A stretch of 64,000 nucleotides of DNA, taken from Sipunculus nudus (lineage: Eukaryota > Annelida > Sipuncula > Golfingiida > Sipunculidae). A program made the translations under genes and the position numbers. The stretch covers positions 35,665,558 to 35,729,557 of the forward strand of contig CM049310.1 in the NCBI GenBank assembly GCA_026874595.1, in the 5' to 3' direction. The number at the start of each line of letters is the position of its first letter. Positions within the stretch are counted from its first letter, which is position 1. The notes beneath the pieces are model-generated. The model saw only the letters and a program-made list of their open reading frames with translations, ran no database searches and had not been told where the DNA came from. Below are positions 781-60,800 of this stretch, one piece after another.

Positions 781-3700
781 CTGTAACAACCATACATAAT
801 ATAATAACAAAGATATGACATATAGAAAACACTGTAGTCCAATACTAATAGGCTACAAGAATTATTAGCCTATTATTACAGATATATCACTAACATATAC
901 TGGTTTTGTAACACCAAGATTATAAAATATGCAAAATAAAATGGTCTTTCAAATAGTAAATCAACATCTCTTTCTTAGCCTTAGGTATGGGCTTGTCATT
1001 ACATATACATTGCCTTCCCCAAAAAAGAAACATTTTATTTGGACATTAGTAAACAAAGTCTTTTGTCAATTAACACATTGCACACAATACACAACAGTAC
1101 ACATCCCACACAATAACATTATTATTAACCAACCATGCATGTTATTACCCAGATACAGAGCCCCTGGCATACATAATATGACATGCAATTCAAGGCCCAT
1201 ATCAATGCCCTTGGACCTCAGGCCAATATGTCACCCTCAGGCCAACATGAAGGCAAAACAGGACACAGCAGTTAATAACATGTAAGTATCCCACCTTTCT
1301 CTGATGGTGGTGTCACACGAGGGTACCTCGCGGGCACGGCTCAGGGGGTGCTCTGCCCCACCCCTGGGGCTGACTACAGGTGTGGTGGGGTTAGAGCTAC
1401 CTCCAACTGCAGCAGCCAAGACAGCCTCCTTCTGCTGGCGGTCGTATTCCACCAGCTCCTTACGGGATGCTAATACTCGCTGAAAGAAGATACAGATATA
1501 CATGTATGATACAGATACACATACATACATATCACTGTTTCGTATGTACCTTTTCGTGGTGAAAAATGATTTCTCATGCACTCTGACATTATATGAACTA
1601 TATATTCATTTCATTATTATAGGCTTCCTCTCAGGGGGTGTCAGTGTGGCACCTTACTGCCAGAATATGTATGTGGGGTGTTATCCCAGACCAGCAATCC
1701 TGGTTTAAACACCCTGAAAAGAAGAGATTGATTCTTTACTATACAGTCTGTCACTGATGGCCAATTGGTGATATAAACACATTTTTCCTAATCAAGATTA
1801 AATTTCTCCCAATTTGTTTTGGGAGAATAACCTGCTAATATCAGATTTGAACCTATAAGTTCCTAAGATAAGAAACTATGTATGAAAAAATGCCATTTCA
1901 TATTAAATTGTTGTCACAAAGTAAGAAAGCAGTATACTGTGAGAGAGTGTAATAACAGGCACTGTATCCCTAAAAATATCACATTTAAAGCCTGGCAGAT
2001 TCATACACAGGATCATGCAAGTATTAACAGTACAAACAGTAAATATAACAACACGTAACAAGAGAACAACCATGGATTCATTAAACTGGAAGTGATCGTA
2101 CCACATATGGTACACAGACATGCATACTTCAGACACACCAAGCAGATGTAGTATGTCCTGCAATGTAGTTACACACTTAAGCCTCCACATTTGTAACGTA
2201 CCTGAATGACCTTGCTGAGCTCCTCATATGTGGTGCGACAGTCCTGGTACTTCTGTGCGATCTGGTAGATGGTTTTCTTGACCTGTGGGGAGGTGTTGGC
2301 GTTGGCGTTGGTACCACTTGGTGTTGTGGTTGTGGTAGTAGTACCCGCACTCTCAGCCTGGAATCATCAATCACATCACATCAGTGAAACTTTTCATCTT
2401 ACAAACCTGGGAATTTATATACTACGAGCAAATAACAATCTCAGCTCACAAATTAACTTCCTGATAATACTAATCCATATGAGTACTCTATGATCCTATT
2501 TACCTAATGTTAATCCGAAAAAAACATTTGCATGCAGAAAAATAAACTGACAAAAACATCTGCTTAAGCATAAATCAAGTAATTTCTATAATCATTTTTA
2601 TAACAGACTGTGATAAAATGAAAACTTGTTCTATTAAATGTGCAGGAAAATGCAGAATATCAAGGTGTCAAAAATGTAGAAATAAGGGACCATGTCATGC
2701 CTGCTAACATCCATGTTAAATAAACAATATGTGAATAACAGTGTGACTGTATTGAACCAACTAATAACTTTCAGTATTTTACATGAGACAAATAATTTGA
2801 ATGACTAAGCGAGAACTATCCCAGTTCATCTATAATTGATACAGAAAGAAAGCCAGTTAGAATATAAGAAAGTGATACTAACTGCACTGGCAGACAGAGT
2901 GGGTTCTCCAAACAGCAGCCCCTCCAGTCCTGGTCGCAGAACCTGGACCTGCCTGTACAGCTTGTCAGCCTTCTCCAGCAGACTATTAATGGTTGATACA
3001 GCCTGTAAAATACCACATCTAACAGTAAACGACCTGTAAAATACAGCATCTAACAGTAAACAGTCTGCAAAATACAACATCTAACAGTAAACAGTCTGCA
3101 AAATACAGCATCTGAGAGTAAACAGTTTATAAAATACAGCATCTAACAGTAAACAGCCTTTAAAATACAGCATCTGACAGTAAACAGCCTTAATGGTGCC
3201 TCATCCAACATTAATAAAACAACCTCAGTATTAGCATGCTAAGATGTAACATATTTCACCATTCCTGTATATCTTCTTTTTCATGACAATTTTCCATAAA
3301 ATAGACTAAAGCTGAATTTTAATTGCCTTTAGGATGAGGATTATCAGGGCAGTTACACTCTATCTTGTATAAATTCTGTATAATGAATTATAAATGTAAT
3401 TTTACAAAACAGTCCATTGTAATATGACATTTTACAGACAGCCTCAACTGATAGTCCTAAGCTAGAGATGACAATATGACATATAATAGTATTATCTACT
3501 GTAATTTCAAGTGATACACTGACACCATATTTACACCTCATATATACGCATCAAGTGACCTCTGACATATCATATATACATCTCTCTAATATCACAAGCA
3601 TAAACAAATATGGCAGATACTTAAGATATTCCAGCTTTATGTACCTTCTTACGGTCTTCATCATTTTCGATTGGGTCAACAGCAGAGCATGGTCTGGCTG

Positions 3701-6700
3701 TCAGACTGAAGTCAAACTTGGCATACTTGCAGAATCCACAGGCGTTACACAAGAATGGGTCTTTCTCATCATAGTTGATTGACCTATAAAAGATGTAAGA
3801 AATTTCATAATATCTAAATACAATCCACTCCTAAACATACTACTGTCATTCTTTATAAAGATCAAGGCCGTTCACGGGTGCATGAAGGGTTCTGCAGAGC
3901 TGATCAACTGGTACACTTGCTCAGCTTTACAATCATACTTGGGTGTCCTTTCATGACAGGATTTTGGGCCAAACCGGACTGTCCCTGTCCACGTTTAGCA
4001 GGTGTCCACTCATGACAGGTCAATTTTAATGGGAAATGGGTCGGGACATTGGCTTAGTGTCCGTACATCGAAGGTGTCACATCCTGGTGTCCCCTCATGG
4101 CAAATTCTGGTGTACTTGATATATTAATATTCTGAAACTTAAAATGCTATCCACATTGTGGCATGTTAATATTTTTGGGTTTTCCAATTCTTAGCTTTCA
4201 GATTATGAAAAAAATGTGTACAGACACAAATGAGACTGTGTTGGGACATTAATTCTGAATTATTTATCTAGAGAAGTGATCAATATGGGTGTGGCCTGTG
4301 GGCATCCACAGGTGCATAAAACCATACAGGAAGCTGTAGTTATTGATCCAAAAATCAGGGAAACTAGATCCCTATAATATTTAGCAGATAATACATTCTT
4401 ACCTGCACTTGTGGCATTGGAACACATTTTCTCCACAGTTTCCACACACACCAGGATTGGCAGGCACTGAGGCGCTGCACCTGGGACACTGGAGAGTTTC
4501 TGTTGTCCCTTGCAAGTTGTCATAGAAGTCAGCATACTCTATCATCAGGTTACATGCCACAATAGGCAGTGGGAACTCAACCTGGGACAAGACAATGTGG
4601 TTTTGTAACTTGTATTATTCTAGCTTCAGGTTGCACACCACTATAGGTAATATGAACCTGATGTTTGCATTCCTTGTATTAAACTGCTATATTTATTATT
4701 TCTATGATAACAGAAAATGTCTACAAGAGATACATTCCATCACAACTCTATTTTTTTTTGCAGTTCTTGATGCTGCAGGTGTGATAGAGTATTCTTTGTA
4801 ATTTAGTCAATGTTATATTTACATTTTCATTAACAATATGCTACAATGCTATAGAGGTTAAAGTGAAAAGTAAAAGATAAATTACTATGGACAGACATAC
4901 TTCATTTGCTTTTGCCAGCTCCAAGTGGTACCACTGTACTGAGTAAAAATCTTCATATTTTTTTAAATTTTTATTTCACTTTATTCCTCAGTTTGGAATA
5001 TAATATATACAAGATTGCATCAAAATTACAGCAGGTAATGTGAACTGTTACTCTGGCAGTCATGTAAAGCATCAGTAAAAATAACATCATTTAAATTTGT
5101 ACCTCTAGTATGGTCATGTGATATCCTACCTTAATATCAGTCTGTCCAGCTGTCAAGGTCACCTTCTTTGCCTTGTGCCATATTCCAGGTCTGAACAAAT
5201 TTGTGTAATAAAATTTATTGATACTTTTAATGATACATGAAGAACAAGTACATGTAAATCTAACAGTGACTGTTTGATAGATTCACAATGTTAATTGCTA
5301 CATCTAATCATATGAATATAGTGACTTAATGACAATGTCTATACCTGGGTGAACAAAATTGAACTGGTAAGTTGATCACAATGCTGTAATACGGTCTTCT
5401 GCAGAAACTTTGTATGGTAACAGGGGGCTGAGTAAAAATCACATATTATAAATTTTCATGTAAAATCTACCTATCTATAAACAATAATATTATTAAGTGA
5501 AGAATTTGGACTCCCTTATTTTATAATAAAATCAACAAACAAAAGACAACTATGACGATGATTACACAGAAAATACTACTTTATAATAAGTTAAGTGATC
5601 TTTTTTTATGATTAATGCAAAAACTGAAAGTGAAAACATTCTAGGGATCAAATTTTACAAAAACAATCTAGCCTCCACTGAATAATACAGCTTTCTCCAA
5701 AACATGCTTTACTATAAATCAGACAGCACTAATTACAGCACTGAAATTGAAAGTAATCTTACCTGTTTTTCAGCTCAACAACAGCCTGTACTGCACGGTT
5801 GTTGTAATAGATGTTTATAGTTCTCACCTACAAAATAAGAATAAAACGAATAAAATGTGCCTTAAATATTAGAACCTTATACTGAAATATACTGTATCTT
5901 TACAATTTTAATTCAGACAACAGAAAGAAGAAACTGAATTAAGTCTTAAAAGAAAAACATAGTAATTCCAAGTGTTTCAATAATTTACAATGATCCCTTT
6001 TCATTTAACATAATTAAAATGGTTATACATTAGAAACTCTTTAATTAATAGAACAATAAATGATATATGAAGTTATATAGAATTTTTTGTTTGTTTAAGT
6101 TCTTGAAAATACATCTATCCCACACCTTTGCCTTCCTGGTAACATATTAATATGTTAAAATGTGCTTAGACCCGCACATAAGTCGACTCCCCTTTCTTGG
6201 ATTAATTTTTTGGGAACAAATTTCTCGACGTATATGCGGTTTTTTACGGTAGTTCAAGAAATACTGTGATTCACTATATTACATTAAACTGTTTATGTAT
6301 AAAATATCTGTTGCTTATATACCATTTTAGTTCTCTTGAGGTCACTGATTCTGATGGCAATCTTGGAGATGTTGTAACTCCCGAACAGCTTCACAATCTG
6401 AGTGGTTGTAGTGAACTTGGAATCCACTTTGATGGCAGACAGCTTTATATTCTGCAAATTAATATTATTGGCGTTGTTATAAACAACAGATTATCCCCAC
6501 CAGACAACCTCTCCTGTAACAGGACACCCTTTTAAATACGAGAGATCTGATCCAAAAGGTGGTCTTGTTAGCAAGCGTTTACTTTAATATATACTTTAAT
6601 AATATAAAGCAAGAACATATATTATTTACAAGCTAAACTGCTGTACATGGGGTAAACTGAATTTATGCACAATCATAACAAACGCCATTAATATGACAAG

Positions 6701-12700: not shown

Positions 12701-15700
12701 CAAACTATACAAACAAACACACAGAAAGCCAAACACATTTTAGTCTTTCTCCATAAGAATCCAACTATGAATAATTTTTGGTATACTTTACCTGGTACGG
12801 TAGTCTGAGGACCATCTCTGTCAGCAGCTGAGGATACGCTTCAAACACATCACTGGCGTGACCTTTGACATACTGTCTCAGGAAAAACGGAGACATGTCC
12901 GGAGGTGAACTGGTCGGCTGAGGTTTCAGAAGTTGCCCACCCACCACAGTACCTTCCTGTAAATAATTATAATTTATTCATGAATATTAATGATTTCATC
13001 AGATATCTGATCCATTTTGAGATGTGAAGGCAGGATCATTTATGCCCGTTTGTAAACAAATCTCCTTCAAAGACCTGGTACTGGTGCTGACATCTGGCTA
13101 TGGGATTTGGTACTACGAGACAGACCTGGTGGACAGATATCAGTATTTGACTAAATTCTGGAGAAGACATGGCAGTGGCTGAGGTATGCTCTCTGAGAAC
13201 TATGTCTTAAACATTCCTTACATGTACTAGGCTATTCATGTTGAGCGTTGGATGATGAGTGCATGGCTAAACATTTGATTTTTTTTTTGCAACAACTAAG
13301 CTTGCAAAACTCTATGTCAGGGGAAACTGAATTCGACATCATGTAAACAATTGTTATAATGGTGCAAAGTGGTTCATCATGTAATAGAATTCTTTGTTGG
13401 TCTACAGTGGCAATCAATACATCAATATATTATGAACAAAATCGGTCTTCTATGGTACATTTTTGCCTGTTTGTATATCATGGTGCAGAGCCAGGCTACA
13501 TAACTGGTTTTCTCATTCTCCCAGTGGGTCCATACTTGTTCTGTTGGTTTAGGGGCGGTGGTGTAATGATTAAGGTGGCGGCTCATGATCTAGAGGTCAT
13601 GAGTTCTAATCCCAGTCAGACATTCCACTGTGCCAAAACCGTTTGGCAAAGACTCAACTGCATGTGTCCCTTTATCCATCCAGCAGTAGAAATATGTACC
13701 AGTGAATACTGGGAAGGTAACCTGTGATGGCCTAGAGTCCCATCCAAGAGGAGTTTAACCAAGAGTGTAATACCCCTAATGGTTTAACTCCTAAGTTGCT
13801 TAATGCTACAGAAACGGGAATAAGCTCCGGCCTGATGAGTAGGCTCGGGTGTAAAAGTCGAACAGACTTTACCTTTTTACCTTGTTCTGCTAGCAGTGAC
13901 TGAAAACAACCATCCTCCTCTAAATATTTTATATTAAAATGAGCAATGTATGTTCATACCTCTTCTTCAGGAAGTGTTTTCCAGTACTTCAGCAGAGTTT
14001 TCAGTATCTCCAGGCAGAGCTCGATCACATTGTTCTCTAACATGGCTCCAGCAGTGTGGGTGCTCACGAAAGATGATGTCTGAAAAACAGATTCACAGGT
14101 CTCAAAGCTCATGTGACCAACATCCAACAGCTCTTTTGTTTTTGTAAAAACAATTAATCCCCACTTGCTCATATTATCAGAAGTGCAAGTTCTGTAGTAA
14201 CACATAAAAAATATCCAGTAATTTTGGATTACCTTCAAGAAGTAACTTTTTGTAAGATTTTTGCAACTTTACATTCAATAATACCAAACACTATGAGTCA
14301 AACAAGTATAATTTTTAAATAAATGAGATCTGTCGTTCTTCATTAATATAAAATTCAAGAAAACTTACAACAGTGAATCATTCCAGGATAACTATTCATG
14401 ATTCTCATATTTGTACTAAGAACCCTGAAATAAAGCTATTTATATAAATATTTAAAAGACATGGGATATAGATACAGTTCTATAGATGTACCATGAAGCA
14501 AAACCACCAGCAGCATTAACTCACCTCTGTTGAAGGCTTGGTTCCGGCCTTGGTGCGAGACATCAATACACTTAGGAGCCTCATTGTGACCAGGACAACT
14601 TCATGCCGGGCTGTGCGACAATCAATGCTTCCAACATCCTGAATGTGTTTGATAAAACAAAACAATATATGACGCTGTGTACAGCAATATGTGATGTCCA
14701 CTGGTTTAAGTTTAGGGTCATTGTCTTCCTGGGTTATCAAAATCAACCCTAAAACAATCCTTCTTAATCTTTCATTAAAACTTTGAAAAAAATATGCAAG
14801 ATGATGAAATGATACATATAAAATCTTAAGGAGGTTTAGGTCCTATTTATGTGAAATTATGTTTCTGAAGGTTATTTAAACCCCCCCCCCCCCTTCCACA
14901 GGGTGGAGGATTAAAGGGGTTGATCAGTTTTTTTCTTTATTCATATTTGGGTTAAAATTTATTGTTCTTGGACCTTCTTAGTCCCCCACAAAAAGCTAAA
15001 CCATCAATCTCAATTTTTTTCCTTTTCTTTCTTTCTTGCGCCATTTTCTGTTTGCACCAGATCTCAAAAATGGCTCTATTTCAAAAGCTGAAACTGGGAC
15101 ATAATATCATTCCTAGGTGACAGATTAACACCTGATATTGATTTCTGATCATGACCTAATTCTGAAAGAATCACACTAGAAGCAAATCCCTGATTATCAC
15201 CCAGTTGCAGGCCTCGAGGAGGATGGGGTTCTGAAGGATTCCTTTAAAGATAAATGGGTTTTTAAGTATGAATGGTTAGAAATAAGCAGTTTCAAGATCA
15301 GGTTAATGTAAGCCGTGCATTTATGCCTGTGCATATGGTGATTGTAACCCTGTGTAAATGCAAGACAGCTGATCTTGTTAGAAAACATTTCCAGACAGTA
15401 TCAATTAAGAAAATTATTACCCCTTTTTCATCATTTTCCAATTGGGCAGTATTCTGCATGAATTAAAACTTCCCTTAGTTTCATTCAGTTTCTAATACAT
15501 AAACATATTTTATATGTCTATATATTAAAGGCTCTACAAAATCATGATATCCCTATGATTACTGCTAATATTCATATCATATATATTCATATATCATATA
15601 TACAATTACTGTTAATATTCACACCATTACCATGCCATTGTCAGGTGTACTTCAGTGATTTTACCTGCTATGGCATCGCCAGGTCTATTTTAATAATTTA

Positions 15701-18700
15701 ACTTGCTCTGGAATTGTCAGGTGTAATTTAATGATTTTACCTGCTATGGCATCATCAGGCGGATTTTAATGATTTTACCTGCTGTGGCACCATCAGTTTT
15801 ATTTTAATGATTTTACTTGCTCTGGAATTGTCAGAGTATTTTTATAATTTTACCTGCTGTGGCATCATCAGGTGTTTTTAAATGGTTTTACCTGCCGTGG
15901 CATTATCAGGTGTATTTTAATGATTTTACCTGCTGTGGTAGCTTGATCTCAGCCATCAAAGCTGTCAGCAGGGAGGTGAGCGCAGCCTTGTCTTTCTCTT
16001 CCTCACTGTCCAAGTCAGAGCTGAGCATCAGCAGTACCTGCAGTAACAACAGCATCATCAGTATCTTAGATTGAGTTATTATTACTCTCCATCATCATCA
16101 GTTTTTTAGCTACCACTCTAAAAAACTCTTCAGGCATAAAAAAATGGAAATAGTGATTTTACCAAACAAAATTCACCATACTGTAACCAACATTTTACAA
16201 CATGGTGCTGATGTTTAAATGACCAACAACATTATGACAAAGATGATGATGATGAGTCAATGGGGCTTTGTTGATACAAAAAAATCCTTTAGCATATGAC
16301 AAACACCAAACTGTTGATTAAAGCTACAATTATTGAATCATGCATGATACGTACAGTCGGTCCTGTTTAATTGAATATTGTATTTGTCAACAGATTATAT
16401 TCATTTAAGCAGGCTATTCAAATAAACTGGGTGTTAATCTTCAAGGTTGTAGCCGTCCCTATAATACTATGAATTGCCATCGGATATAGCTTGTGTGTGT
16501 TTCCCGTATTATTCAGATGTTCTGAATTATCCATTTTGGAATTTTTCATTTAATGATGTTTCAATACATTAGTTTTTTATATTTTATTTATTTATAATTT
16601 CTACACCTTCTATGGAAAAAATACTGTGTAATCATCTGTTTGGAATTATTATTGATAAAAACAATCTCACTACCAATGGCTAACAGCTTACAGATCACAT
16701 GAACATATCAAATGATATCAAAGATTTAATATGATTCCTCAAGGATTTTAATTTATCCTAAAACATTTTGTTTCAACTCAAGAAGTAAAGAATTACTTTG
16801 CATTCACCTGTTCATATATGTTATCTATGAAAAGTGATGCTGCAAAATGGCTGACAGCTTAAGTTTCACGTGAATGTGTCAAAGGTCATGAAGTTCAGGA
16901 AGATTCCTAAAAGATTTTGATTTTTGTAACATGTATTGTCTTCTTTTTTTACTTTAAAAATACTTTCTGCACGTTTACCTGTTCTTGTGTGGTCTTAAAA
17001 AAAAATAAAAAGATGTTTCTGGAAAACGTCATCCGTCCACCACCACTACTCAAAACCATTGTGAATACCACCCTACGCAATGTGCATGGCTGGCTGCATA
17101 CTGATCACGTGAATATGTCAAAGGTCAATAAGGTGAGAGGCCACATAAGGCCAGCAAAATACAGATTCATACTTCGAATTAACTATAAAAAACGAATTGA
17201 TACTGTTTTCCTAAAGGATGTTCTTATGTATTAAAAAAATGATTGACCGTATAGGTAATGCTCTCGAATGAAGACCATGTTTAAAGCATTTTCTGGTGTT
17301 TATAATGCAACCTACCCTGTGACAGTTTGTCCAGGGAGCACATGTAGAATTAAAGCATCAAACACACATTTACTTAAGCATGTAATCAAGGAGGGAAACC
17401 ATTTCAGCCGAGTCATATCAAAGGCTAATTAGAAGAAAGAGTGGTCAGTGGTTCATGAGGTAACCCTTCAAACCCGTCGGGTGAGCAACATCAAAGGCTA
17501 ATTAGCGCACTGGGCAATTAGCTGTCCGTAAGACCATTGTCGCTCATGAATATCCGGGATTGTCATGCATGATGGACGGATTTTTCTATACAATTACCCA
17601 GTATACATTAATCAGATATTCATATAAACAGAGAATTTTATTAAGAAGACATAGGACAAGGTTTTGGTTTTCATTATTTTATACAAAAATATAAAATGCA
17701 TGTCATGCATGATGGACAGATTTTTCTATACAATTACCCAGTATACATTAATCAGATATTCATATAAACAGAGAATTTTATTAAGAAGACATAGGACAAG
17801 GTTTTGGTTTTCATTATTTTATACAATTTAATGGGATATACATAATATGATATACATTTAAGCAGGACCGACTGTATATGTCAAATGACACTTTGATTAA
17901 TAATGCTTAAGAATTCAAAAATGATCTGATAACCATTTACCTTTCAAAAATGACAAATAAGAACATTAGACTGTAAAAGATAAAGATGAGTGACAGCACA
18001 CATGGTGCTTCTTGCTCACGTCTCACTTTTGCTTTAATGAATGTACACTCTGAAATATTCATTATTGATTCATTTGATCTCACTACCTCTGATGGTTATC
18101 AATCTAAACACTTAAATAAGTTACACTCTCAACCATTAGGCAGTAACAGAGTATGGCTGAGCATTTTCACATACAAAACACCAGCATCTACAACTGAACA
18201 GTAAAACAATGATGACCTTGTGAATTACCTGCATGAACGGGATGGCTCCAACACCTCCCACCACATGTATCTCTGGTAGATACTTGAGCATGTGATCCAG
18301 CATCAGTAGTCGGAGGGTGTGGAGTCTCACGCCGCTGTCTATCTCAGCTTGAGTCTCAGCCTCCTGGACCTCTCCCTCGGGCAGGATAGACCCGCTTGGT
18401 GCGCCCACACTGCTTGTTTCACTGCGTGCCCCAGTGGTGGCTGATTCTGCAGCGCCATCCCCGTACAGACTGCTACGACCACTCACTACATTGAAATCAA
18501 AAGATTAAGTATAACATAATAAAACCACAGGGTAACATAAATCCGTTGTTATTATATAGAACATTATGAAATCATGATGGCAACCAAGAGATAAGCCACT
18601 TGCTTTCAGTGAGTAGGTAACGTTAAGGAGGTCCTTTTACTTAATGTGGTGTCAGAACTATTATTTTATTTTCATTATTTGTCTTTTTTGGTCTCCTGAA

Positions 18701-20630
18701 GCACAGTTAAGGAGAAATAGTTGTGATGACCCTATGCCAAACTCAAAGGATACATCATGAGTAATATCATACCAGGTAAGTTTGAATAGTATTATAATGC
18801 TGAACCCTGTTAAAATATAAACTCCCAGGATATTTTGTCCAAATCAATCAATAGACAGATTAAAAGTTTGAAGCCAAAATGACAATGAATGTACCCAGCT
18901 CTGTTGGCTGGATTGACAAGAAGTAAACTGTATATAGTACACAAAAGAAAAGTACCATTGTGTTCTCCAGAAATTGATTCAATGGCACTGCCTCCACTTT
19001 CTGAGCCCGCACTTCCACCATGTTCAGCTGGTGAGGTACGAAGTGTTGACCCATCAGTCGCAGCTGTACTACCAACCTCATCATCGCTACCCGGGGCCGA
19101 AGCCGTGGTGTCTGACAAATGACCTTCACCTAGAGACGAAGGCCCCTGACCCTGTATACCAAGCTGTAATCCCTGTAGGTTCAGTCCACTTCCCTGTCCA
19201 GCCTAGATTGAGAAAGCAGAGGATCAAAGTCAAAGGTTTTAAAAGGTTTTCATGCGTTAGTTTCAATATGAAGGAACTCCACTGAGATGTTTAACATCAT
19301 GCATTACTAAAAACAAAACACATTCAGTCATTCTGAAGAGAACAGGATTTGTAAACAAAATTATTGTCTCTTGTTAACATATGCTGCATCATCCGTACTA
19401 ATGGTTAATAGCAAAATTGGCTTGTTAGCCTTATCAAAGTGCTAAATGAGGGTATGTTAAAGTTGGAAATGGTTAGAAAAACAACGCATGTTAGAATATT
19501 GATCTTTTCATATCCATGCAAATTAACTCTTAAATAATTTAGATGGAACAGTTTACTTAGTTGAGTTGGAAAAACAACAAGCAGTAGCTGTATCTATTCA
19601 GAACTTGTTAGAATGGGGAAGAAAGCTGAGAAAATTTCTATGGCCCTGCGTGAAAGATGTATTATGTGTGATATGATGAGAAATCAATGGTGATCCCACA
19701 GGCCTTCATAACATCTTTATCACATGTTTACATACCTGACAGTCACATGGGTTTAGATATACCAAAATGTAAGTGACCATGAGAAGGCTCTGTCGGAATA
19801 TCACCAGGCTGATTAAGTCCAATCAGCTCTGATAGTCTTTCTCCAAGCCCAGAGAGTAAATAAAACATCCAAGCCAGTCACTCATCTTTAGGTTTATCTT
19901 GAACCATGAGCCTATATTGAGTTTTTTAACAAGTACAAGGGGAGCTTTCAAGCATGTGGTATTTCAAAACACAGTAACTTGTTGAATTCCTTTATACTCT
20001 TGTGAAACTAGCAAAGCTACATTTCCAGATCTCTTATATCATTACTAAATGCATAAAAAACATAAATAGATATCATTAAATTTATCTGTTCCCTATTCAT
20101 ATTTCCATGTCTATCCTGGTATTTCCATTTCTATTTCTGGTTGATAAATATGCACATACTAAAAAAAACACCTGGAATTCTCAAAAATTATTCCGAATCT
20201 AATCAATTCAGTAAGAGCTTAAGCCTGATGTAGGAAGGAAAAGATACAGAAGGGTAGCCTTATCCTCTCCATGATGAAACTCTGCTACACTTTTTGGAGA
20301 ATATATTGTATTTTATCAGAAGAATGTAATTCCAAATGACTGAGTTACTGGGATTGGCCTTAACCTGATGGGCATTGCCACAGTTATTTATGCCACAACA
20401 CAGAATGTAAGCCTTATGAGACAGTCCTAAATGCTCTGGATACCCAAATGCTTTTCCATACAGGAATAATTCTAAATTTGAAAGCTACTGATTTGGTATA
20501 TTTCTGGAAGTGTAACTCATTGTATTTATGTTCTTTGCTAGAACTAATACATATATTACCTTTACTTGAAGCAACTGCCTTTGGTGTTCATTATGTTTTC
20601 CCACACAACTTCTCTCTAAATACAGCATGT

Positions 20631-20675
<45 letters not shown>

Positions 20676-23600
20676 GGGGTAGCAACATCTAAACATTATT
20701 TGACAGGGACCTTACAGGGACTTTATATAGTGACCATGTTGTCTTTGGGGACAACCTTCAGAAACAGGACAATGAATACATTTAATAATACTAAAGGAGC
20801 CCACCCTTAGTACCTGGAGTCACCTTTACCGTGTGAATATAATTTTTTTTGTGGGGTTAAGGATAATATATTTGTCTTGGGAGACAACAGAAATTACAAT
20901 AATATATTAGTCTTTAAGGACATTACTTAGCTCTGCTGCTAGTATTCTGCTTGACTCTCTGCCTGTCTTGGGTATTTTTTTACCCAACACCTATTGGGGT
21001 TTCACTCACATATAACAATCACTTATCATATTTGCTAAATGAAAGAATCTTCAATGATGCATATAACTAGCCTTTCCTAAGGTGGAATAGTTCTAAATGC
21101 CTCAGATATATATTGATTCAGATAATGTTTCCTTTATGGAACTGGACAATTCTAAATGCTCCAAATGGTCTATAGTGCCATAGATTATCTATCCTTCATA
21201 AAAAGGGACATTTCTAAATGCCATAAATGCTCTATATTGTCTCAAATTATCTGCCTTTCACAAAATGGGACAGTTCTATTTCAAAATGCCTTCAGTACTC
21301 AAAATTGCTTTAGTGTATTTACCTTCCATCAAATGGGACAATTCCAGATGCCAAAAGTGCTCTAAAATGCATTGTTTTGGCTTATTTACCATTCATCACA
21401 TGGGAGAGTTCTAGACCTAAATGCCTCAAGTACTCAAACTGCCTTGGTTTATTTAATGTTCATCATATAGAACAATTCTAAATGTAAAAATGTTATAGTT
21501 TTGTCTCAGATTATATATTCCTCATCCAACTGAACAGTTCTAAATGCCTCAGATACCCATAATACCTAACATTTTATTACCTTTCAGCAAAATGGGACAG
21601 TTCTAAATGCCTCAAGTACTCAACATTGTCTCTGCTTCCTAACCTTCTTAAAAGGGACCTCAGAATATCTACCCTTTATCAAATGGGACATTTCTGAATG
21701 TCTCAAGTACTTGACACTGTCATGCCATTTACCTTCCATTAAATGGGACCTCGGGGTATCCATCTTTTGTCAAATGGAACGATTCTAAATGCCTCAAGTA
21801 CTCAAAATTGCTTTGGCTTATTTACCTTCCATAAAACGGGAAAACTCTAAATGCCTGAATTGCTGAATAGCTCAAAATTGCATTTCCCTATCTTATTTAC
21901 CATTCATCACATGGGAGAGTTCTATTTCAAAATGCCTCAAGTACTCAAACTGCCTTTGTTTCTTTAATATGAATCACATGGAACAATTCTAAATGTAAAA
22001 GATGTTACATTTTTATCTCAGATTATATATTCTTCATCCAACTGAACAGTTCTAAATGCCTCAGATACCCATAATACCTAACATTTTATTACCTTTCAAC
22101 AAAATGGGACAGTTCTAAATGCCTCAAGTACTCAACATTGTCTCTGCTTCCTAACCTTCTTAAAAGGGACCTCAGAATATCTACCCTTTATCAAATGGGA
22201 CATTTCTGAATGTCTCAAGTACTTGACACTGTCATGCCATTTACCTTCCATTAAATGGGACCTCAGGGTATCCACCTTTTGTCAAATGGAACGATTCTAA
22301 ATGCCTCAAGTACTCAAAATTGCTTTGGCTTATTTACCTTCCATAAAACGGGAAAACTCTACATGCCTGAATTGCTGAATAGCTCAAAATTGCATTTCCC
22401 TATCTTATTTACCATTCATCACATGGGAGAGTTCTAGACCTAAATGCCTCAAGTACTCAAACTGCCTTGGTTTATTTAATGTTCATCATATAGAACAATT
22501 CTAAATGTAAAAATGTTATAGTTTTGTCTCAGATTATATATTCCTCATCCAACTGAACAGTTCTAAATGCCTCAGATACCCATAATACCTAACATTTTAT
22601 TACCTTTCAGCAAAATGGGACAGTTCTAAATGCCTCAAGTACTCAATATTGTCTCTGCTTCCTAACCTTCTTAAAAGAGACCTCAGAATATCTACCCTTT
22701 ATCAAATGGGACATTTCTGAATGTCTCAAGTACTTGACACTGTCATGCCATTTACCTTCCATTAAATGGGACCTCGGGGTATCCATCTTTTGTCAAATGG
22801 AACTATTCTAAATGCCTCAAGTACTCAAAATTGCTTTGGCTTATTTACCTTCCATAAAACGGGAAAACTCTAAATGCCTGAATTGCTGAATAGCTCAAAA
22901 TTGCATTTCCCTATCTTATTTACCATTCATCACATGGGAGAGTTCTAGACCTAAATGCCTCAAGTACTCAAACTGCCTTGGTTTATTTAATGTTCATCAT
23001 ATAGAACAATTCTAAATGTAAAAATGTTATAGTTTTGTCTCAGATTATATATTCCTCATCCAACTGAACAGTTCTAAATGCCTCAGATACCCATAATACC
23101 TAACATTTTATTACCTTTCAGCAAAATGGGACAGTTCTAAATGCCTCAAGTACTCAATATTGTCTCTGCTTCCTAACCTTCTTAAAAGGGACCTCAGAAT
23201 ATCTACCCTTTATCAAATGGGACATTTCTGAATGTCTCAAGTACTTGACACTGTCATGCCATTTACCTTCCATTAAATGGGACCTCGGGGTATCCACCTT
23301 TTGTCAAATGGAACGATTCTAAATGCCTCAAGTACTCAAAATTGCTTTGGCTTATTTACCTTCCATAAAACGGGAAAACTCTAAATGCCTGAATTGCTGA
23401 ATAGCTCAAAATTGCATTTCCCTATCTTATTTACCATTCATCACATGGGAGAGTTCTAGACCTAAATGCCTCAAGTACTCAAACTGCCTTGGTTTATTTA
23501 ATGTTCATCATATAGAACAATTCTAAATGTAAAAATGTTATAGTTTTGTCTCAGATTATATATTCCTCATCCAACTGAACAGTTCTAAATGCCTCAGATA

Positions 23601-26600
23601 CCCATAATACCTAACATTTTATTACCTTTCAGCAAAATGGGACAGTTCTAAATGCCTCAAGTACTCAATATTGTCTCTGCTTCCTAACCTTCTTAAAAGG
23701 GACCTCAGAATATCTACCCTTTATCAAATGGGACATTTCTGAATGTCTCAAGTACTTGACACTGTCATGCCATTTACCTTCCATTAAATGGGACCTCGGG
23801 GTATCCACCTTTTGTCAAATGGAACGATTCTAAATGCCTCAAGTACTCAAAATTGCTTTGGCTTATTTACCTTCCATAAAACGGGAAAACTCTAAATGCC
23901 TGAATTGCTGAATAGCTCAAAATTGCATTTCCCTATCTTATTTACCATTCATCACATGGGAGAGTTCTAGACCTAAATGCCTCAAGTACTCAAACTGCCT
24001 TGGTTTATTTAATGTTCATCATATAGAACAATTCTAAATGTAAAAATGTTATAGTTTTGTCTCAGATTATATATTCCTCATCCAACTGAACAGTTCTAAA
24101 TGCCTCAGATACCCATAATACCTAACATTTTATTACCTTTCAGCAAAATGGGACAGTTCTAAATGCCTCAAGTACTCAATATTGTCTCTGCTTCCTAACC
24201 TTCTTAAAAGGGACCTCAGAATATCTACCCTTTATCAAATGGGACATTTCTGAATGTCTCAAGTACTTGACACTGTCATGCCATTTACCTTCCATTAAAT
24301 GGGACCTCGGGGTATCCATCTTTTGTCAAATGGAACGATTCTAAATGCCTCAAGTACTCAAAATTGCTTTGGCTTATTTACCTTCCATAAAACGGGAAAA
24401 CTCTAAATGCCTGAATTGCTGAATAGCTCAAAATTGCATTTCCCTATCTTATTTACCATTCATCACATGGGAGAGTTCTAGACCTAAATGCCTCAAGTAC
24501 TCAAACTGCCTTGGTTTATTTAATGTTCATCATATAGAACAATTCTAAATGTAAAAATGTTATAGTTTTGTGCCAGATTATATATTCCTCATCCAACTGA
24601 ACAGTTCTAAATGCCTCAGATACCCATAATACCTAACATTTTATTACCTTTCAGCAAAATGGGACAGTTCTAAATGCCTCAAGTACTCAATATTGTCTCT
24701 GCTTCCTAACCTTCTTAAAAGGGACCTCAGAATATCTACCCTTTATCAAATGGGACATTTCTGAATGTCTCAAGTACTTGACACTGTCATGCCATTTACC
24801 TTCCATTAAATGGGACCTCGGGGTATCCATCTTTTGTCAAATGGAACGATTCTAAATGCCTCAAGTACTCAAAATTGCTTTGGCTTATTTACCTTCCATA
24901 AAACGGGAAAACTCTAAATGCCTGAATTGCTGAATAGCTCAAAATTGCATTTCCCTATCTTATTTACCATTCATCACATGGGAGAGTTCTATTTCAAAAT
25001 GCCTCAAGTACTCAAACTGCCTTTGTTTCTTTAATATGAATCACATGGAACAATTCTAAATGTAAAAGATGTTACATTTTTATCTCAGATTATATATTCT
25101 TCATCCAACTGAACAGTTCTAAATGCCTCAGATACCCATAATACCTAACATTTTATTACCTTTCAACAAAATGGGACAGTTCTAAATGCCTCAAGTACTC
25201 AACATTGTCTCTGCTTCCTAACCTTCTTAAAGGGACCTCAGAATATCTACCCTTTATCAAATGGGACATTTCTGAATGTCTCAAGTACTTGACACTGTCA
25301 TGCCATTTACCTTCCATTAAATGGGACCTCGGGGTATCCACCTTTTGTCAAATGGAACGATTCTAAATGCCTCAAGTACTCAAAATTGCTTTGGCTTATT
25401 TACCTTCCATAAAACGGGAAAACTCTAAATGCCTGAATTGCTGAATGGCTCAAAATTGCATTTCCCTATCTTATTTACCATTCATCACATGGGAGAGTTC
25501 TATTTCAAAATGCCTCAAGTACTCAAACTGCCTTTGTTTCTTTAATATGAATTACATGGAACAATTCTAAATGTAAAAGATGTTACATTTTTATCTCAGA
25601 TTATATATTCTTCATCCAACTGAACAGTTCTAAATGCCTCAGATACCCATAATACCTAATATTTTATTACCTTTCAACAAATGGGACAGTTCTAAATGCC
25701 TCAAGTACTCAACGTTACCTTAGCTTATTTACCTTTCATTAAATGGAACCTCAGTTTAAATAAATCTACATATCATCATATGAGACAGTTCTAAATGCCT
25801 CAGATGCTCTATATTGCCTCAGATTATTAACCTGGTCTTGCAGACTAAGGGGGACAGTTCTAAATGCCTCAGATGCTCTATATTGCCTCAGATTATTTAC
25901 CTGGTCTTGCAGACTAAGGGCAATAGCCAGCTCAACCATGGCCTCATCGTCAGCATCAGGTGGTATATCCAGTAACGGCGGGAAATTTCCTCCGCCATCC
26001 AGAAGAGCCTCGAGCGGGCTGGGCTGAGGAGGCGGAGCATTCACCACAGGTGGTCCAAGAACCATGGACTCAGGGGGGTCCTGTGGCAGCAAAACAAACC
26101 AACAAACCACACTCAAAAACGCAACTCAAGATGGTTAATATACTTAGTCTGGAAACACTATAATCTGTTCCACACCATCAGGTATAATGAGCGTGTAACA
26201 ATTCATTATACTGTGATTTGACACATATGTTGATACTTCACCAAAAATACTATACATACACGTAGTATTTAAGTTCAGAGTCCCAAGCTGTTACTCTTCT
26301 TTATTCAAGTTTGTCATGCCACTGCCTCCAAAGTTCAGGAACAACTAGAATCCGCTTTGTTCTTACAGAAGCAATAACAGATATCTCCCCACCCCCCGAC
26401 CCCCCCCCCTCCCCCCAAAATTTGAGGAAAAAATATGCACAATATCAAAACTTATGGCAGTAATAGAAACATATGAATCCATAGATTTGACCTGAAAGAT
26501 CAAACTTTGTGGAAACAACCCGTGTGAGAAATTTGAGGGAAAAACCTCCAGTACATAAAAAGATTTCACTGTTTAAAAATATTAAATCATGCTTCTCTCA

Positions 26601-32600: not shown

Positions 32601-35600
32601 TCACAAAAGGTATAAAATACCAGCTGAAAACTTTATTAATAGACAGAATTTACACACCCCTGTGCAATACTTAATAGATCTAACATATACTGAGCTTTTC
32701 CCTGCATTTATGGAAATTATGGAATCAAGCACGGTCTATAGTCCATAACATCCACCCATGTCCACTTGTTTTTTTAGCGATTATTTTTTTACCAGTCTGT
32801 CTTACGTGGAGCTAATTGTGAAAAATCAGGTGGACAGCGGTGTGGAATGGACTAAAGCTAATACATCACTAATGTTGGAGGCTTCATTACTGTGATAACA
32901 TGTTATTACAATATGCCAAAAGGCAAAAGTATGCAGAGTTGAGACAAATGAAGGCTTTCTGTTTTAGGAAATCAAAATTGCATTTACATGAAGACACATC
33001 AGCTCTAGACATATGCTTCAAACCAGAGGCAACAACTAGACACTTTTGCAAGAAAGTATAGACATACCTTTAAAACAGTTTCAAAAAGATTAACAGAGCT
33101 TTATTAATTCATAAATAATTCCATAGCTGTCTCACTGTTTGTAGATATGCATTTAGCACAACAGTCTTGGTAATACATTTGAGTAACAGACAAGAATTAG
33201 TATAACTGGAACAGAACTTTCCACATTAGAAGAGACAGAGATATAACTGTACCACAGGACTCACCTTCTCATCCCCTGTGCCCAGCACAACTGCAGCACA
33301 GTCTAAAACCTCCAGGGAGCTGGACAGAAGGTGATCCACCAATGACAGGGGGACTGAGGGCACGTACTGACCCTCTGTATCGTTATTATTAGAGCTCAGC
33401 CCAACAGGGACTGGCTTAGGCCCAGGAGCAGCTGGATCTGGAAAATCCTCGGTCTCCTCAGGCCAGCCGAATGCTTCTTTGGTTTTAACGTAAACTTTGA
33501 TGGAGTCGACCATTGTCACTCCTGCAGGATCAACGCTTGCTCCCACTGCAATACCCAAACTTCATTATTTTATGTTACTTGGCTATTTTTACCATGTCAT
33601 GCAGATATCATATCAAGTGGTATCATTTTCCATGTATAAACAAGTTGGCTCAGCTGTAATAGCATAACAATGCATGCACCACTTATTACAACTAGAATAC
33701 GGGTAGTCGACAAGCGACTACGTGTATCCGCCTTAATCAGAGTGGAACGGGTGAAGTGAGGCATGGATTGAGTGGCAAGGGGAAATAGAGTGTTGCATAT
33801 TAGCATGGATGTCTGCAGCCAAATTGTGTATGTAGGTTGCCCCCCCCACCACAAAATCCAGAAAGCCGTCCAAGTTGTATACATATGCAAAATTAAAGGC
33901 AGATAAGTCAAACCACTACATGTATATGAGTGATTTTAGCCCGTGGCAGACAAACAGATGGACGCTGTGCAAAAATGGTTGCACGTGATGCCACCAGTTT
34001 TGCGTATGATAAAAAGCTATGTGACAACTATACACATGCAAAACTTTGGCCCAATCGGTCAAACGGTTCCCAAGATATGAGCTTGGATGTCTGCTGCATG
34101 TACTAGAATGCAGGTGGCGCCACCTGTCATAAAATCAAGAGAGCTATCGGGGATGTATAAACCTGCAAAATTTTAGGCAGATATGTCATAACACTGCCGA
34201 GATATGAGTGATTTTATCCCATGGCAGACAAACAGACAGGAGCTGTGCAAAAATGGCTGCAGGTGGCGCCACTAGTTTTGCGTATGATAAAGAGCTTTGT
34301 GAGATCTATACACATGCAAAATGTTGGCCCAATCAGTCAAACGGTTCCCGAGATATGAGCTTGGATGTCTGCAGCTTAAACGTGAATGTAGGTGGCCCCA
34401 CCTGTCATAAAATCAGAAAAGCTATCCAGGATGTATACGCATGCCGAATTTCAGGTGAATTAGTCAAGTCACTGCAGAGGTATGAGTGATTTAAACCCAA
34501 GGCAGATGAACAGATGGACACTGTGCACACATGGTTGCAGGTGGCGCAACCATTTTTTGTGTATGTTATAAAGCTCTCCAAGGGCTACATTTGTGCAAAA
34601 AAATTTTCCTGATCGGTCAAACGGTTCCCGAGATATGAGCTTGGATGTCTGCAGCGTAAACGTGAATGTAGGTGGCGCCACCTGTCATAAAATCAGAAAA
34701 GCTATCCAGGATGTTTAAGCATGCCGAATTTCAGGTGAATTAGTCAAGTCACTGCAGAGATATGAGTGATTTTAACCCAAGGCAGACGAACAGATGGACA
34801 CTGTGCAAACATGGTTGCAGGTTGCGCCACCATTTTTTGTGTATGTTATAAAGCTCTCCAAGGGCTACATTTGTGCAAAAAAATTTTCCTGATCGGTCAA
34901 ACGGTTCCTGAGATATGAGCTTGGATGTCTGCAGCGTAAACGTGAATGTAGGTGGCGCCACCTGTCATAAAATCAGAAAAGCTATTCCGGATGTTTACGC
35001 ATGCCGAATTTCAGGTGAATTAGTCCAGTCACTGCAGAGATATGAGTGATTTTTAACCCAAGGCAGACGAACAGTTGGACACTGTGCAAACATGGTTGCA
35101 GGTGGTGCCACCATTTTTTGTGTATGTTATAGAGCTCACCTACGCGGCGGCGGCGGCGTGCAGCTGAAAACATAGTATCCGCAAAACTCTGTTTTGGCTG
35201 ATACAATTAAAAAGTTTTTACTTGATGAATTAAGGCTTCCAGTCCCTAGCCCTGTACATGTCTATATTAGCTCAGATGAGACCAATGTTAAAAACCTGCT
35301 AGAGTATGCAACTGAGATAACAAATACTAAAATTTTGGTGAATATAATTTAAACTAAAGCAGTGTCTGTTAAACTGGAGGATATAATAAATGAAAAATTC
35401 AAATGTAACTAAAAGGTTAATACACAACTAGAATGGCTTTGATTCTGTGATATACGTCTCCCCCCATGGGCATTCACAAAACATTAGAGGCAAAAATATG
35501 CAATAGACTGATTCTAGACGTCAGCAGATTTGACCATCAAAGTCAAGGTCATCATTTTTGAACTCCTCCAAGATTTTGGCAGAAAGAACTGGTGTGTCAA

Positions 35601-56600: not shown

Positions 56601-57859
56601 AACATACATGGGTGGAGACATAACCCCTTCATGTTGTTACGACACCGAATAAATCCTAATATAATTTGAGTATTTGGGCATGGTAAATAAAACTTGTTAT
56701 CCCACTCTACATTTTGCCAATACACGTAGGTCCCCTTGCCACCAAGCTCTCTCCTCAGATAGTTTCTTGCCAGTGCGTTCTCTTTGGAGTAATTCATGTC
56801 ACATCCCACAGCTCTTATCATACCATAGTTTATTTCAACCGGTTTCTCAAAACCGCTCATGGAGGCTGCCATTTTGCATACACACTAAAACCTGGATGTC
56901 ACAGGTCCCATTTCATAACAGTTGGTATAGTGCTATTAAAAGAAATATTACACTGTCTGCATTATTAAGAGACTTACATGATGAGGTCACTGCTGAAGCG
57001 AACCAAAGCATGCATCAGGTGTTTCAGTCCAGCTGTCAAATCCAGACTGCCTGGAAAACAAGACAACAGATTTGATAGGTAAGGCGCTAAAAGAACAGAG
57101 TATACAGATGGCCATACTAAGCACTTACAATTCACAGCTTATCACTTACCTTTAATTATTACTGGTATATACATTTGATTTCAATAATGTTACAGCTGAT
57201 ATGAAAGGTGACATTAACACATACCCATAGACTTTATGAAAAAAGAAAATTGATACCTGCAAAAAGAATTTATAATGACTGGTACTCATTCAACTATACA
57301 TGCCACACAGTTTACTAACAAAACCACCATTCACAGGGAGGGAATGGGGGGGGTTTTATTACGTAAACATAATTGTGAGCTGTTTCTGTATTAATGAGAA
57401 AAGAACAGACAAACCTTGGGGAGGGAGCACCTACCTGGAACGAAGGAACGAGGAGAACGCAGTGCTGGGATGGCGCAGCAGACGACATCGACGGTGGAAC
57501 AGACGGAGAGGAAGAAGATGGCCTGGAAAATTGGAGGACCTCACCCGACGCGATCACAGGTCCCAGGGAGTAGAGGCCCGAAGCCTGGAGCTGAACATCC
57601 TTTAGATAGAATCGTGTGAATGTAGACGGAGATTTCCAGTATCCCTTCTTGACCAATTGATTGGGTGAGATCCCGGAGAAATGTGCCAAGGAAGTCGAAA
57701 GAGCTCGAATGTCGTGAGCTTTGACCTGGAGTTGGTCTAAGGTGGATTGAGAAGCTGATTCATATGCGGTGACTATAGTAGCTTTGAGCCACGCACTAAT
57801 GGTGATAGGGCTAATCTCCCTATTGGAAGTTGTGACTTTTGTAGAAATAAACAACTTCA

Positions 57860-57896
<37 letters not shown>

Positions 57897-60800
57897 TAAA
57901 GAATGAGTAGCTTTAAGATAATATCGTAACGCACGAACCGGGCAATTGGTAGCCCCATAACAGTATTGACCGTTAGGGAGGGCCGGAACGTGCCAAGCAG
58001 ACGGAGGGTCATCGAAATTTTGGTTTTTCCTATAAAAATCCGGAGGAAAATGCAGGGTGGCCGACGAACCGTCGGCCGCAATTTGTGCGAATTTCGAATC
58101 AGCCACGAGGGCATGAAGCTCAGAACGGCGACCGGCCGAGGCTAGAGCGAGGAGGAAAACCGTTTTCCGAGATAAATGGAGAAGATGGGCTGAACGCAAC
58201 GGCTCATAAGGGGGTTCCCGGAGATGACGTAAGACTACGTCCAGGCGCCAGGAAGGCGCAACATACCGAGGACAAGACGCACGGGCATGAACCCCCTTGA
58301 GAATCCGACACCAACGGATGATGAAGGACAAGATCGTGACCCAGCGGACAGAGCACAGACAGCAGGGCGGCCCGATAGCCACGCAGAGAGGTATAGGATA
58401 AATGTTTATCCCGCAGTAAGAACACAAAAAAGTCCAATACCGCCGCAAGCAACGGATCTAAAGGAGAGATTTCCCAGGAAGACGTCCACTCTGTGAAGAG
58501 ATGCCACCGGGAGTCATAGATGCGGTCCGAAGAACGGCAACGGGGAGCCGAGGCAAGGAGAGCAGCCGGACTTGAAATGCCCTGATCCTTGAGGTGTCCG
58601 AGGAGAGCACGCATGCGCAGAGAGGGTACGACCGAAATGGGCGATGCACACGAGGGAACGACGGGAGCGTGATGCGGAGCGGTAGTAGAAGTGGGGGGCG
58701 AGAGAGAAGCGAGCGCCACAGAGGAAACCAGGGAGCCGCAGGTAGAAACGGGAGTATGAGAAGAAGGGAAGTCCGGTCCGCGCGTGACAAGCGGAGAAGG
58801 ACACGGCGGAGGAGATGAGGCGCCGGAAACGCAAAGAGAGACCGGTGAGACCACTTGGACGGGGAGACGGTCGCGAGGGTGACGTAGACGGGTCGCGGTA
58901 GGCACAAGAATGGGGGGGGGGGACGGAAAATCTAACAGATCGAAAGCCGGCCGCCCCAGGCGAGCGAAAACCCTCCGAAGAACTGGGAAGGGAAGGAGCG
59001 GAGAGGAAGGAGGAGACGCCGGATGACGGGATAGGGAGTCTGCGAGGATGTTCGACACGCCCGGCAGATGGGATGCACGAACCGAAGCCCGGAGAGAGAT
59101 GCAGAGATCGAACAAAAGGTAAGTCTCCTGCATGAGAGAGGGAGACCGAGTACCGCCCTGCTTGTTGATATAGGCCACCACCGTGGTATTGTCGGTCCGG
59201 ACGAGAATGTGGCTGCCGATCAAGCGGGGGGACCAGTGTGAGATCGCGTGACGGACAGCATGTAGTTCTAGGATATTGATATGGAGCAGACGTCCCGACG
59301 GGGACCATATCCCTGAAGCGCGAAAATCGGCAAGATGGGCCCCCCAACTGAGGAGAGACGCATCGGTATAGATGGTGCAATCGACTTCCATGGAAAAAGG
59401 AACGCCGCGCAGGAGAAAAGAAAGGTCCATCCAAGGACGAAGGCACCGCCATGTGAGCCGAAATGGGAGGACCGTAGGACGAACCTAGGTTAAACAGAGA
59501 AGGCTGTGACGGCGCAGGAGAGACTGAATCAGACGTAGGTACAGTCGGCCGCACGGGATAAAAGACGCGGCCCAGTTGAGAGCACCGTGGAGAGAAGCCG
59601 CAGTGCGCGAGTCAACACGGCGCCCCGTGAGAAACGAACGAATTTGCCGGCAGAGCTTGAGAGCAAAATCTCGCGGGAGCGACGCCGTGCCGGACGCAAA
59701 AGCGAGCGTGACACCCAGAAATTGGAGGGACTGGGTGGGAGTGAAAAGAGATTATTCCGCATTGACTAGAAAGCCAAGGTTCCGAAGTAACGTGAGAACC
59801 CGGGAACGATGCGACAGTAATAGGGAGCGATCGGCCGCATGTACCAGCCAATCGTCCAGATAAGGGAGCACAGAAATGCCCTGGGAACGGAGAAAACTCG
59901 TGACCGTGTGAACAAGCATGGTAAAAATCCAGGGGGCCACGTTGATCCCGAACGGAAGGGCCTGGAATTGAAAAACGCGGTTCTGATACGCGAAGTGAAG
60001 AAACGGTTGAGACGAGGGATGGATTGGAACGTGAAAATAGGCATCCGTAAGATCGATTTATAACGCCCAATCCATCCGCCGAACAATGTGGAGCACAGCA
60101 TGGATATTGAACATCCGAAATGGAGGCTGACGGATGAAAGAATTGAGGCGCTTCAGATCGATGATTGGGCGCCAATGGCCGTGCGGTTTGGGAACAAGAA
60201 AAAGGCGAGAGTAAAACCCGACGGTGGACGGGGAAACCTCGAAAATGGCCTGTTTGTGTAACATAGATTGAATGGCCTCCTCCAAAGTGAGGCGTTTGGC
60301 CGGATCGGACAGAGGCGGAGTGAAGAACAGGTGCATGGTGACGGGAGGTGCCTGCAAAAACGTAAGACGGAACCTGAACTTCATGGTGCTGGGAATTAAC
60401 CGGGTGCTGGAAATTAACCGCTGTGAGGTGATACATGCCCACGCGGGAAAATGGGCGCTTAGACATGCGCCGACCGGAGCACGAGAGTCATTTCTTGGTC
60501 GAACCTCGTTTGGAGGAACGACCACGAAAAGGCTGAGAACGGCTGGAACGTCAGGAAGGACGTGAAGACGTAGTAGAAGCGCGGCGCGGCTGAGCTGAAG
60601 CCGCAACCGGAGGCCGAGGGCGGGGAACACGGAAGGATGGCGTAGGAGCCAGAGAGGTCGAGCGGAGGCGGGCCTGACGATCCGAGCGCTCCAAGGCGTG
60701 GTCAAAGAGAGGCCGTAAATGGCCGCCAAACAGCAGGGAACTGGTGAAAGGCTGAGTAAGCTCCGGCTTTAAGTGCTTTAAGGACTGAATACAAGCCGTG

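Follow-up and report, generated by a model that had tools for sequence, protein, structure and literature searches.

A stretch of 64,000 nucleotides from Sipunculus nudus (assembly GCA_026874595.1, contig CM049310.1, positions 35,665,558 to 35,729,557; hereafter the window) carries, on its minus strand, part of a gene homologous to UBR4 in which tandem arrays lie on splice junctions. Spliced exon fragments from the window, and one fragment from its flank, matched human UBR4 chains in the PDB. A simple home-made exon model kept 51 gene exons below 56 kb in the window. The spliced fragment that includes the exon at 25901-26080, here called w39, matched human UBR4 with an E value of 1.5e-82, and the alignment of w39 has a gap of one or two residues near the junction. 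The next exon starts at 19202, and therefore the w39 intron spans 19203-25900. The features of this locus are the following (a slash marks an exon-intron junction or its place in the protein):

25901 to 26080, minus strand: coding exon w39 of the UBR4 homologue, in phase 0 on either side; its residues end in ...ALSLQDQ and its donor is CAG/GTAAAT.
25784 to 25920, minus strand: 69-bp tandem duplication of the 5′ splice junction (Tandem Repeats Finder, TRF; period 69, 2.0 copies, 98% matches).
25832 to 25900, minus strand: the 69 nt from one donor to the other, in frame and stop-free (23 residues), a possible exon extension if the second donor were used.
21075 to 25733, minus strand: satellite of ~62-bp monomers, the phase starting at the donor-like GGTAAATAA (monomer hidden Markov model, HMM).
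21590 to 25679, minus strand: eight full 511/512-bp higher-order units, found by a genome search with one copy as query, which also returned partial units.
19013 to 19202, minus strand: next coding exon downstream of w39 (exon model and human UBR4 alignment).

A first-pass annotation of the window had described the w39 junction as duplicated in a 69-bp unit, and TRF recovered this duplication. A unit comprises the donor with 20 bases of exon before it and about 48 of intron after it. The intron halves of the two copies differ at one base, and the second donor reads CAG/GTTAAT. As it overlaps the exon edge, the duplication is a junction-spanning minisatellite. The satellite beyond it has the higher-order organisation that had been proposed. 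One 511-bp copy, when cut up, yielded seven monomers (59-75 bp) plus two pieces of 31 bp; the 511-bp units are 95-100% identical to the query copy (four at 99%, the outer three at 95-96%), and the mean monomer identities are 0.59-0.74, so that the higher-order units are more alike than the monomers within them, as in a classical satellite. The two monomer words singled out before were concentrated in the array far above shuffled controls: GACAGTTCTAAATGCCTCA, with at most two mismatches, has 21 sites in the window, all in 21086-25871 (none in 100 shuffles), and TTATTTACC has 22, with 19 in 21382-25901 (shuffle mean 1.0, maximum 4). A monomer HMM, built with the junction left out, gave 71 rows in the window, 67 of them in 21075-25901, and every row with E < 0.1 falls in this interval. 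The inverted repeats in the array amount to 55 pairs, and the 25 listed are one word inside the repeated unit. Side by side with these repeats, the end of the exon (25901-25951, minus strand) resembles a ubiquitin-interaction motif, with 12.7 bits for Pfam UIM, under the cut-off of 21.

The genome searched comprises 1.43 Gb in 153 contigs, with the window on contig C5; the genome-wide searches for the repeats, here and below, skip very common words. The 511-bp unit gave 13 matches, all at C5:35686703-35691459, which is the w39 intron with the exon edge, and was found at no other locus. Thus, the monomer, sought elsewhere in the genome, lacks the abundance at other loci of a classical satellite, and no related copies at unrelated loci, of the kind left by introner-like elements or transposons, were found. 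The remaining 1.9 kb of the w39 intron also matched only itself.

According to the first-pass annotation, the monomers share parts of the w39 junction and the satellite may most simply have been seeded by it. For the intron side, the comparison with shuffled sequences bore this out: it matched the monomer HMM with 38.3 bits, while only 11 of 1000 simple shuffles matched at all, the best with 4.0. Among the 51 donors of the gene, that of w39 alone matched. The HMM match starts at the last exon base, and the monomers are in phase with the donor. The exon side did not follow. The 20 exon bases are carried only by the newest, 69-bp copy and not by the older monomers, and an exon origin of the monomers, compared with 50 other exon tails, was unsupported. 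Judged by these alignments, the monomer starts with the donor, and what it has in common with the junction is the first part of the intron, not the exon. Seeding by the junction is therefore supported in part: it keeps the intron-start similarity, the donor phase, the single locus and the exon-tail-plus-donor units of other arrays (below) in its favor, but not a w39 unit with exon sequence. Identity of the two junction copies to 18 other monomers ranges from 60 to 78%; a junction copy is as close to a monomer at the far end of the array (T3, 0.77; other far-end monomers, 0.66-0.72) as to a near neighbor (H3, 0.73). Because its intron halves differ by one base, while the junction copies differ by 22-40% from the other monomers, the 69-bp copy looks like the youngest piece of the satellite and not its seed.

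Further arrays lie on junctions of the same gene, in the window and in a flanking stretch, L005:

15641 to 15938, minus strand: 38-bp × 7.9 array on the donor of exon 15930-16037 (TRF).
15930 to 16037, minus strand: exon that anchors the 38-bp array at its donor (exon model, human UBR4 match).
2998 to 3190, minus strand: 31-bp × 6.2 array on the acceptor of exon 2883-3002 (TRF).
2883 to 3002, minus strand: exon that anchors the 31-bp array at its acceptor; DRKK/AVSTIN aligns gap-free to human UBR4.
L005:1503-2444: donor array of UBR4, 25-bp × 37.9, with 15 exon bases per unit.
L005:6869-7001: donor array of UBR4, 38-bp × 3.6.

The arrays at 3.0 and 15.9 kb had been called splice-site-anchored before, and they are, the former at an acceptor and the latter at a donor. 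The accompanying count of three arrays in one gene was too low: we found five, on four donors and one acceptor, among the 100 UBR4 exons called. In the array at 15641-15938, nine exon bases (CCACAGCAG) recur before GTAAAAT, altered in some copies, and the exon side ranked first of the 51 exons. Its monomers thus carry exon sequence, unlike those of w39. Genome-wide, this array was found at a single locus. In the units of the acceptor array, the splice-site position is followed by about five bases that resemble the exon (GCTGT or variants). What had seemed a further acceptor array, at 12738-13933 of the UBR4 region, consisted of short repeats merged with a 180-bp repeat, and was excluded.

Our sample of genes covered UBR4 and its flanks and parts of a TRRAP-like gene (named by Pfam family only), HUWE1 and three dynein heavy chains, six gene regions in all (324 kb). 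Two false calls were dropped from the 269 exons called, leaving 267; arrays were found by TRF and then checked at exon edges. At eight of the 267 donors the units copy the exon tail together with the donor, in up to 37.9 copies. The donor arrays are spread over four large contigs (C1, C3, C5 and C9), with further ones on C1 and C2. Outside UBR4 they are the following:

L016:7223-9340: donor array of HUWE1, 93-bp × 21.1, with 23 exon bases per unit.
L023: donor array of DNAH12, 92-bp × 2.9, with 30 exon bases per unit.
L025: donor array of DNAH2, 55-bp × 7.9, the unit holding the exon end that codes for VITPLTD and the donor.
L029: decayed donor array of the dynein gene on C3, with ~103-bp units, missed by TRF.

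At DNAH2 (VITPLTD(R)/CY), DNAH12 and the two L005 donors of UBR4 the spliced protein aligns gap-free to its human counterpart through the junction; therefore the exon-proximal donor is the one that the protein needs, and the exon pieces in these four arrays copy conserved coding sequence. For DNAH2 and DNAH12 this means that the exon gave rise to the array. At HUWE1 the human alignment is of little help, the junction falling in an acidic stretch. Arrays on acceptors numbered three, two of them in the C9 dynein region besides that at 2998-3190; their exon similarity is shorter or weaker than at donors. The clearest is L024:2596-4545, where a 58-bp × 31.6 array lies at the acceptor of exon 4534-4751 and its units resemble the exon start GAATGCTT. 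In the same C9 region, a 26-bp × 33.8 array, L024:5275-6151, stops 29 nt short of an exon edge.

When the last 16 exon bases were compared with up to 1500 nt of downstream intron, at least 14 matches were found for 7 of the 267 exons. The first 16 exon bases compared with the upstream intron reached this level in 0/267, and two wrong-side controls in 0/267 each; against these three comparisons pooled, Fisher's test gave 5.8e-5. By this exon-end test, donors exceed acceptors by 7:0 (P 0.015). The array at 15641-15938, with only nine exon bases copied, escaped the 16-base test and was counted from TRF and from reading of the array. An exon tail ranked first among all tails in its own intron in 8 of 267 cases, with 1.1 expected; one of the eight, HUWE1 1599-1707 (13/16), showed no array on reading and was dropped. 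Outside UBR4, the gene in which the pattern was first noticed, exon tails are copied at 4 of 167 exons. The position of the arrays was also compared with random re-placement, for which 49 of 81 merged TRF arrays were kept. Units under 20 bp, dispersed families (periods 275-285, 336, 361, 673 and 179-182), retroelement-like spans and arrays wholly inside an exon were left out. At w39, the 69-bp duplication and the 4.3-kb array counted as two of the 49, the second as not junction-spanning. Seven arrays span a donor, with 1.56 expected (P about 0.001), and three an acceptor, also with 1.56 expected (P 0.2). Outside the window, 5 of 40 span a donor, with 1.32 expected (P 0.009).

Genome-wide, the donor word CAGGTAAGT occurs twice within 15-45 bases 695 times and the reversed word 259 times, many of these occurrences within single arrays. 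A hand count among the matches listed (C1, C2 and C3 up to 48.6 Mb) gave 22 donor-word and 12 reversed-word loci, which is not decisive since the donor word should also be commoner singly. We read 21 of the 22 donor-word loci, and 13 control loci, 12 from the same territory and one further along C3. A coding-like exon ended at the first donor in 4 of 21 donor-word loci and in 0 of 13 reversed-word loci, which are small numbers. The threshold for an exon end was the 95th centile of 214 false sites and passes 89% of the called donors, which are its own training exons. The exon tail is copied at 19 of 20 bases at three of the four passing loci (L039, L043 and L045) and at 10 of 20 at the fourth (L047); it is copied at 19 of 20 also at L033, which lies slightly below the threshold.

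From these alignments and counts, we regard it as likely that intronic minisatellites have repeatedly been born at 5′ splice junctions in the Sipunculus nudus genome. The donor-anchored class is a stronger finding than the w39 satellite alone. In this scheme, a short tandem duplication would copy the exon end, the donor and some of the intron. If splicing keeps the first, exon-proximal donor, the protein would remain intact and the extra copies would become intron. The intronic copies could then expand by unequal exchange or slippage, and decay, while the array would stay pinned to the junction at its left end through purifying selection on the exon. At w39, a ~62-bp unit that opens with the final base of the exon and the donor may have been amplified and have diverged; the monomers would then have been reorganised into the 511-bp higher-order unit, which spread recently, and the new 69-bp duplication, with its 20 exon bases, would have been added last. 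An acceptor duplication puts the spare copy upstream, where the splicing machinery would meet it first and add sequence to the message. An extra donor falls downstream of the true one and an extra acceptor upstream; we infer that donors therefore outnumber acceptors. A mechanism that targets donors could also be at work. That junction duplication is a general, donor-biased route of satellite growth in the introns of this lineage is a tentative proposal, possible but short of probable. If it is true, genes are left with a run of some 35 donors of equal strength, only the foremost of them yielding the right protein, and the donor bias would preserve in the DNA the spliceosome's rule for choosing when donors are equal.

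Several points weigh against the birth of arrays at donors, among them the two locus counts from the donor-word probe. The splice matrices of the exon model were generic ones entered by hand, and at least one donor call, at 19013, looks wrong; probably the exon runs on there, as the human protein suggests. No junction array was found in the 41 exons of the TRRAP-like gene. The donor placement P varies with the exon overlap allowed (3.5e-5 with 20 bases, 0.013 with 60), and outside UBR4 the excess is weak (3 of 29, with 1.03 expected; P 0.08). By array overlap, as opposed to the exon-end test, donors exceed acceptors only by 7:3. Lastly, among the tails of the 51 exons, that of w39 ranked 28, 24 and 32 in ungapped comparison with ten monomers at three lengths, and second when gaps were allowed.

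This last result bears on a different origin of the w39 array, as an ordinary intronic satellite that reached the exon; since its monomers include a donor-like word, the junction could have been formed or replaced by recombination with a monomer, and the array would then have seeded the junction. The monomers match the intron side only and stop at the last exon base, and the junction copies are not central among the monomers (mean identity 0.68 and 0.71, the others 0.59-0.74). However, other arrays in the gene and in the genome copy exon sequence, so that the direction there is from exon to array, and the monomer phase at w39 coincides with the donor. We therefore consider such an origin unlikely, if worth taking seriously.

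The second w39 donor could also be in use, yielding a UBR4 isoform with 23 extra residues. The 69 nt between the donors are in frame and open, and the second donor reads CAG/GTTAAT; yet by our estimate chance alone would leave about one such duplication in nine open and in frame, the T at position +3 is disfavored in the donor matrix, and the human UBR4 alignment is without such an insertion. Such an isoform seems distinctly unlikely. For the class as a whole, a protein-isoform function was rejected, as the length of 6 of the 8 units is not divisible by three and 6 of the 8 first units, were they retained, would introduce a stop codon.

Those stop codons, together with the orientation of the extra donors, could instead suggest that the arrays are kept for a function, either by offering U1 a series of docking sites or by switching splicing to an unproductive outcome. 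Additional sites no weaker than the true donor are in excess in the sense orientation at L005:2430, the UBR4 donor of the 25-bp array (34:0, sense to antisense), DNAH2 (6:0) and the donor at 15930 (5:0). Such a bias is expected from copying alone, however, and is absent at HUWE1 (6:7) and DNAH12 (6:5), while the w39 intron has only one such site. Among HUWE1 copies found by their exact flank, the true donor included, GT is kept in 3 of 19 and lost in 16 (GA in 15, AA in one); decay, spread of one mutant unit or selection against decoy donors could each account for this loss. The donors at which arrays were seeded are no weaker than the rest (P 0.27), and weak donors as the cause of duplication were rejected. 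Special conservation of the donor within units was rejected too: identities in the donor window and in the rest (0.958 and 0.862, 0.995 and 0.994, 0.986 and 0.956, 0.963 and 0.900 in four arrays, HUWE1 left out) are indistinguishable from the effect of copying. We consider retention for a function improbable. No function is needed for the arrays, because the donors are not weak, most units are out of frame and most first units add a stop, and most HUWE1 copies have lost GT.

Insertion of a dispersed repeat or mobile element beside the exon is very improbable: the region does have dispersed tandem repeats of 277-280 bp and retroelement-like frames, but genome searches, which skip very common words, placed the 511-bp unit, the 38-bp array and the other 1.9 kb of the w39 intron at one locus each. 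An assembly artefact or chance is scarcely credible, for although tandem arrays are where assemblies err, the copies differ by substitutions, the arrays lie on several large contigs and shuffles give no comparable match.

Human introns have reportedly been linked to tandem arrays, to go by the title of a 2007 PNAS paper by Zhuo and colleagues; its reported subject is how human introns originate, and it does not survey satellites anchored at donors. Both tandem repeats that cross exon-intron boundaries and the gain of introns through tandem duplication have already been published. A 2009 study of human genes in segmental duplications describes internal tandem repeats, averaging 30 bp and 4 copies, at the boundaries of exons and introns, and 27 intron modifications, said to form novel introns and splice variants (PMC2812944). 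The likeness lies in minisatellite-sized units that cross the boundary and alter intron structure; here, in contrast, the genes are UBR4, HUWE1 and dynein genes, the arrays lie on intron donors and the message is predicted to be unchanged. In intron gain by AGGT tandem genomic duplication, as outlined in a review (PMC3443670), a duplicated exonic segment creates an intron. This too is a short tandem duplication with splice-site sequence, tolerated as splicing removes the copy, but in our case an existing intron would be lengthened from its 5′ end and the duplication amplified to many copies. Intron 1 of an earthworm metallothionein gene contains a structured minisatellite array (PMC12783039), likewise within an intron of an invertebrate gene; a link of the repeats to a splice junction is not stated in the part of that paper available to us. 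We found no description of a donor-biased, recurrent class of intron arrays in a literature search that reached few subscription papers. Such a class connects how satellite DNA arises with how splice sites are chosen, two subjects usually studied apart, and would be a route of intron growth from exon ends that leaves a datable record. If it extends genome-wide, it would provide natural constructs in which near-identical donors compete in series, with the rule of choice readable from RNA data.

Other repeats in the window lie off the junctions. The duplication at 17561-17826 (140-bp unit, 1.9 copies, 99% identical) is recent, and its nearest exon edge is 403 nt away. A weak 21-bp × 2.6 repeat lies within a called coding exon at 13964-14019. 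An Rfam scan gave no match reaching the gathering scores. At 33924-35137 there is a tandem array with a period of 277-280 bp, and the same period was found at the flanks of UBR4 and in the dynein regions of C9 and C3; these look like a dispersed repeat family, as judged by period. Arrays of 336 bp were found at both the C1 and C9 dynein loci, again judged by period and not by sequence. Finally, the minus strand at 57300-62900 has long open frames, whose motifs we take to resemble those of the reverse transcriptase or recombinase of a retroelement; a comparable set lies in the right flank (L011).

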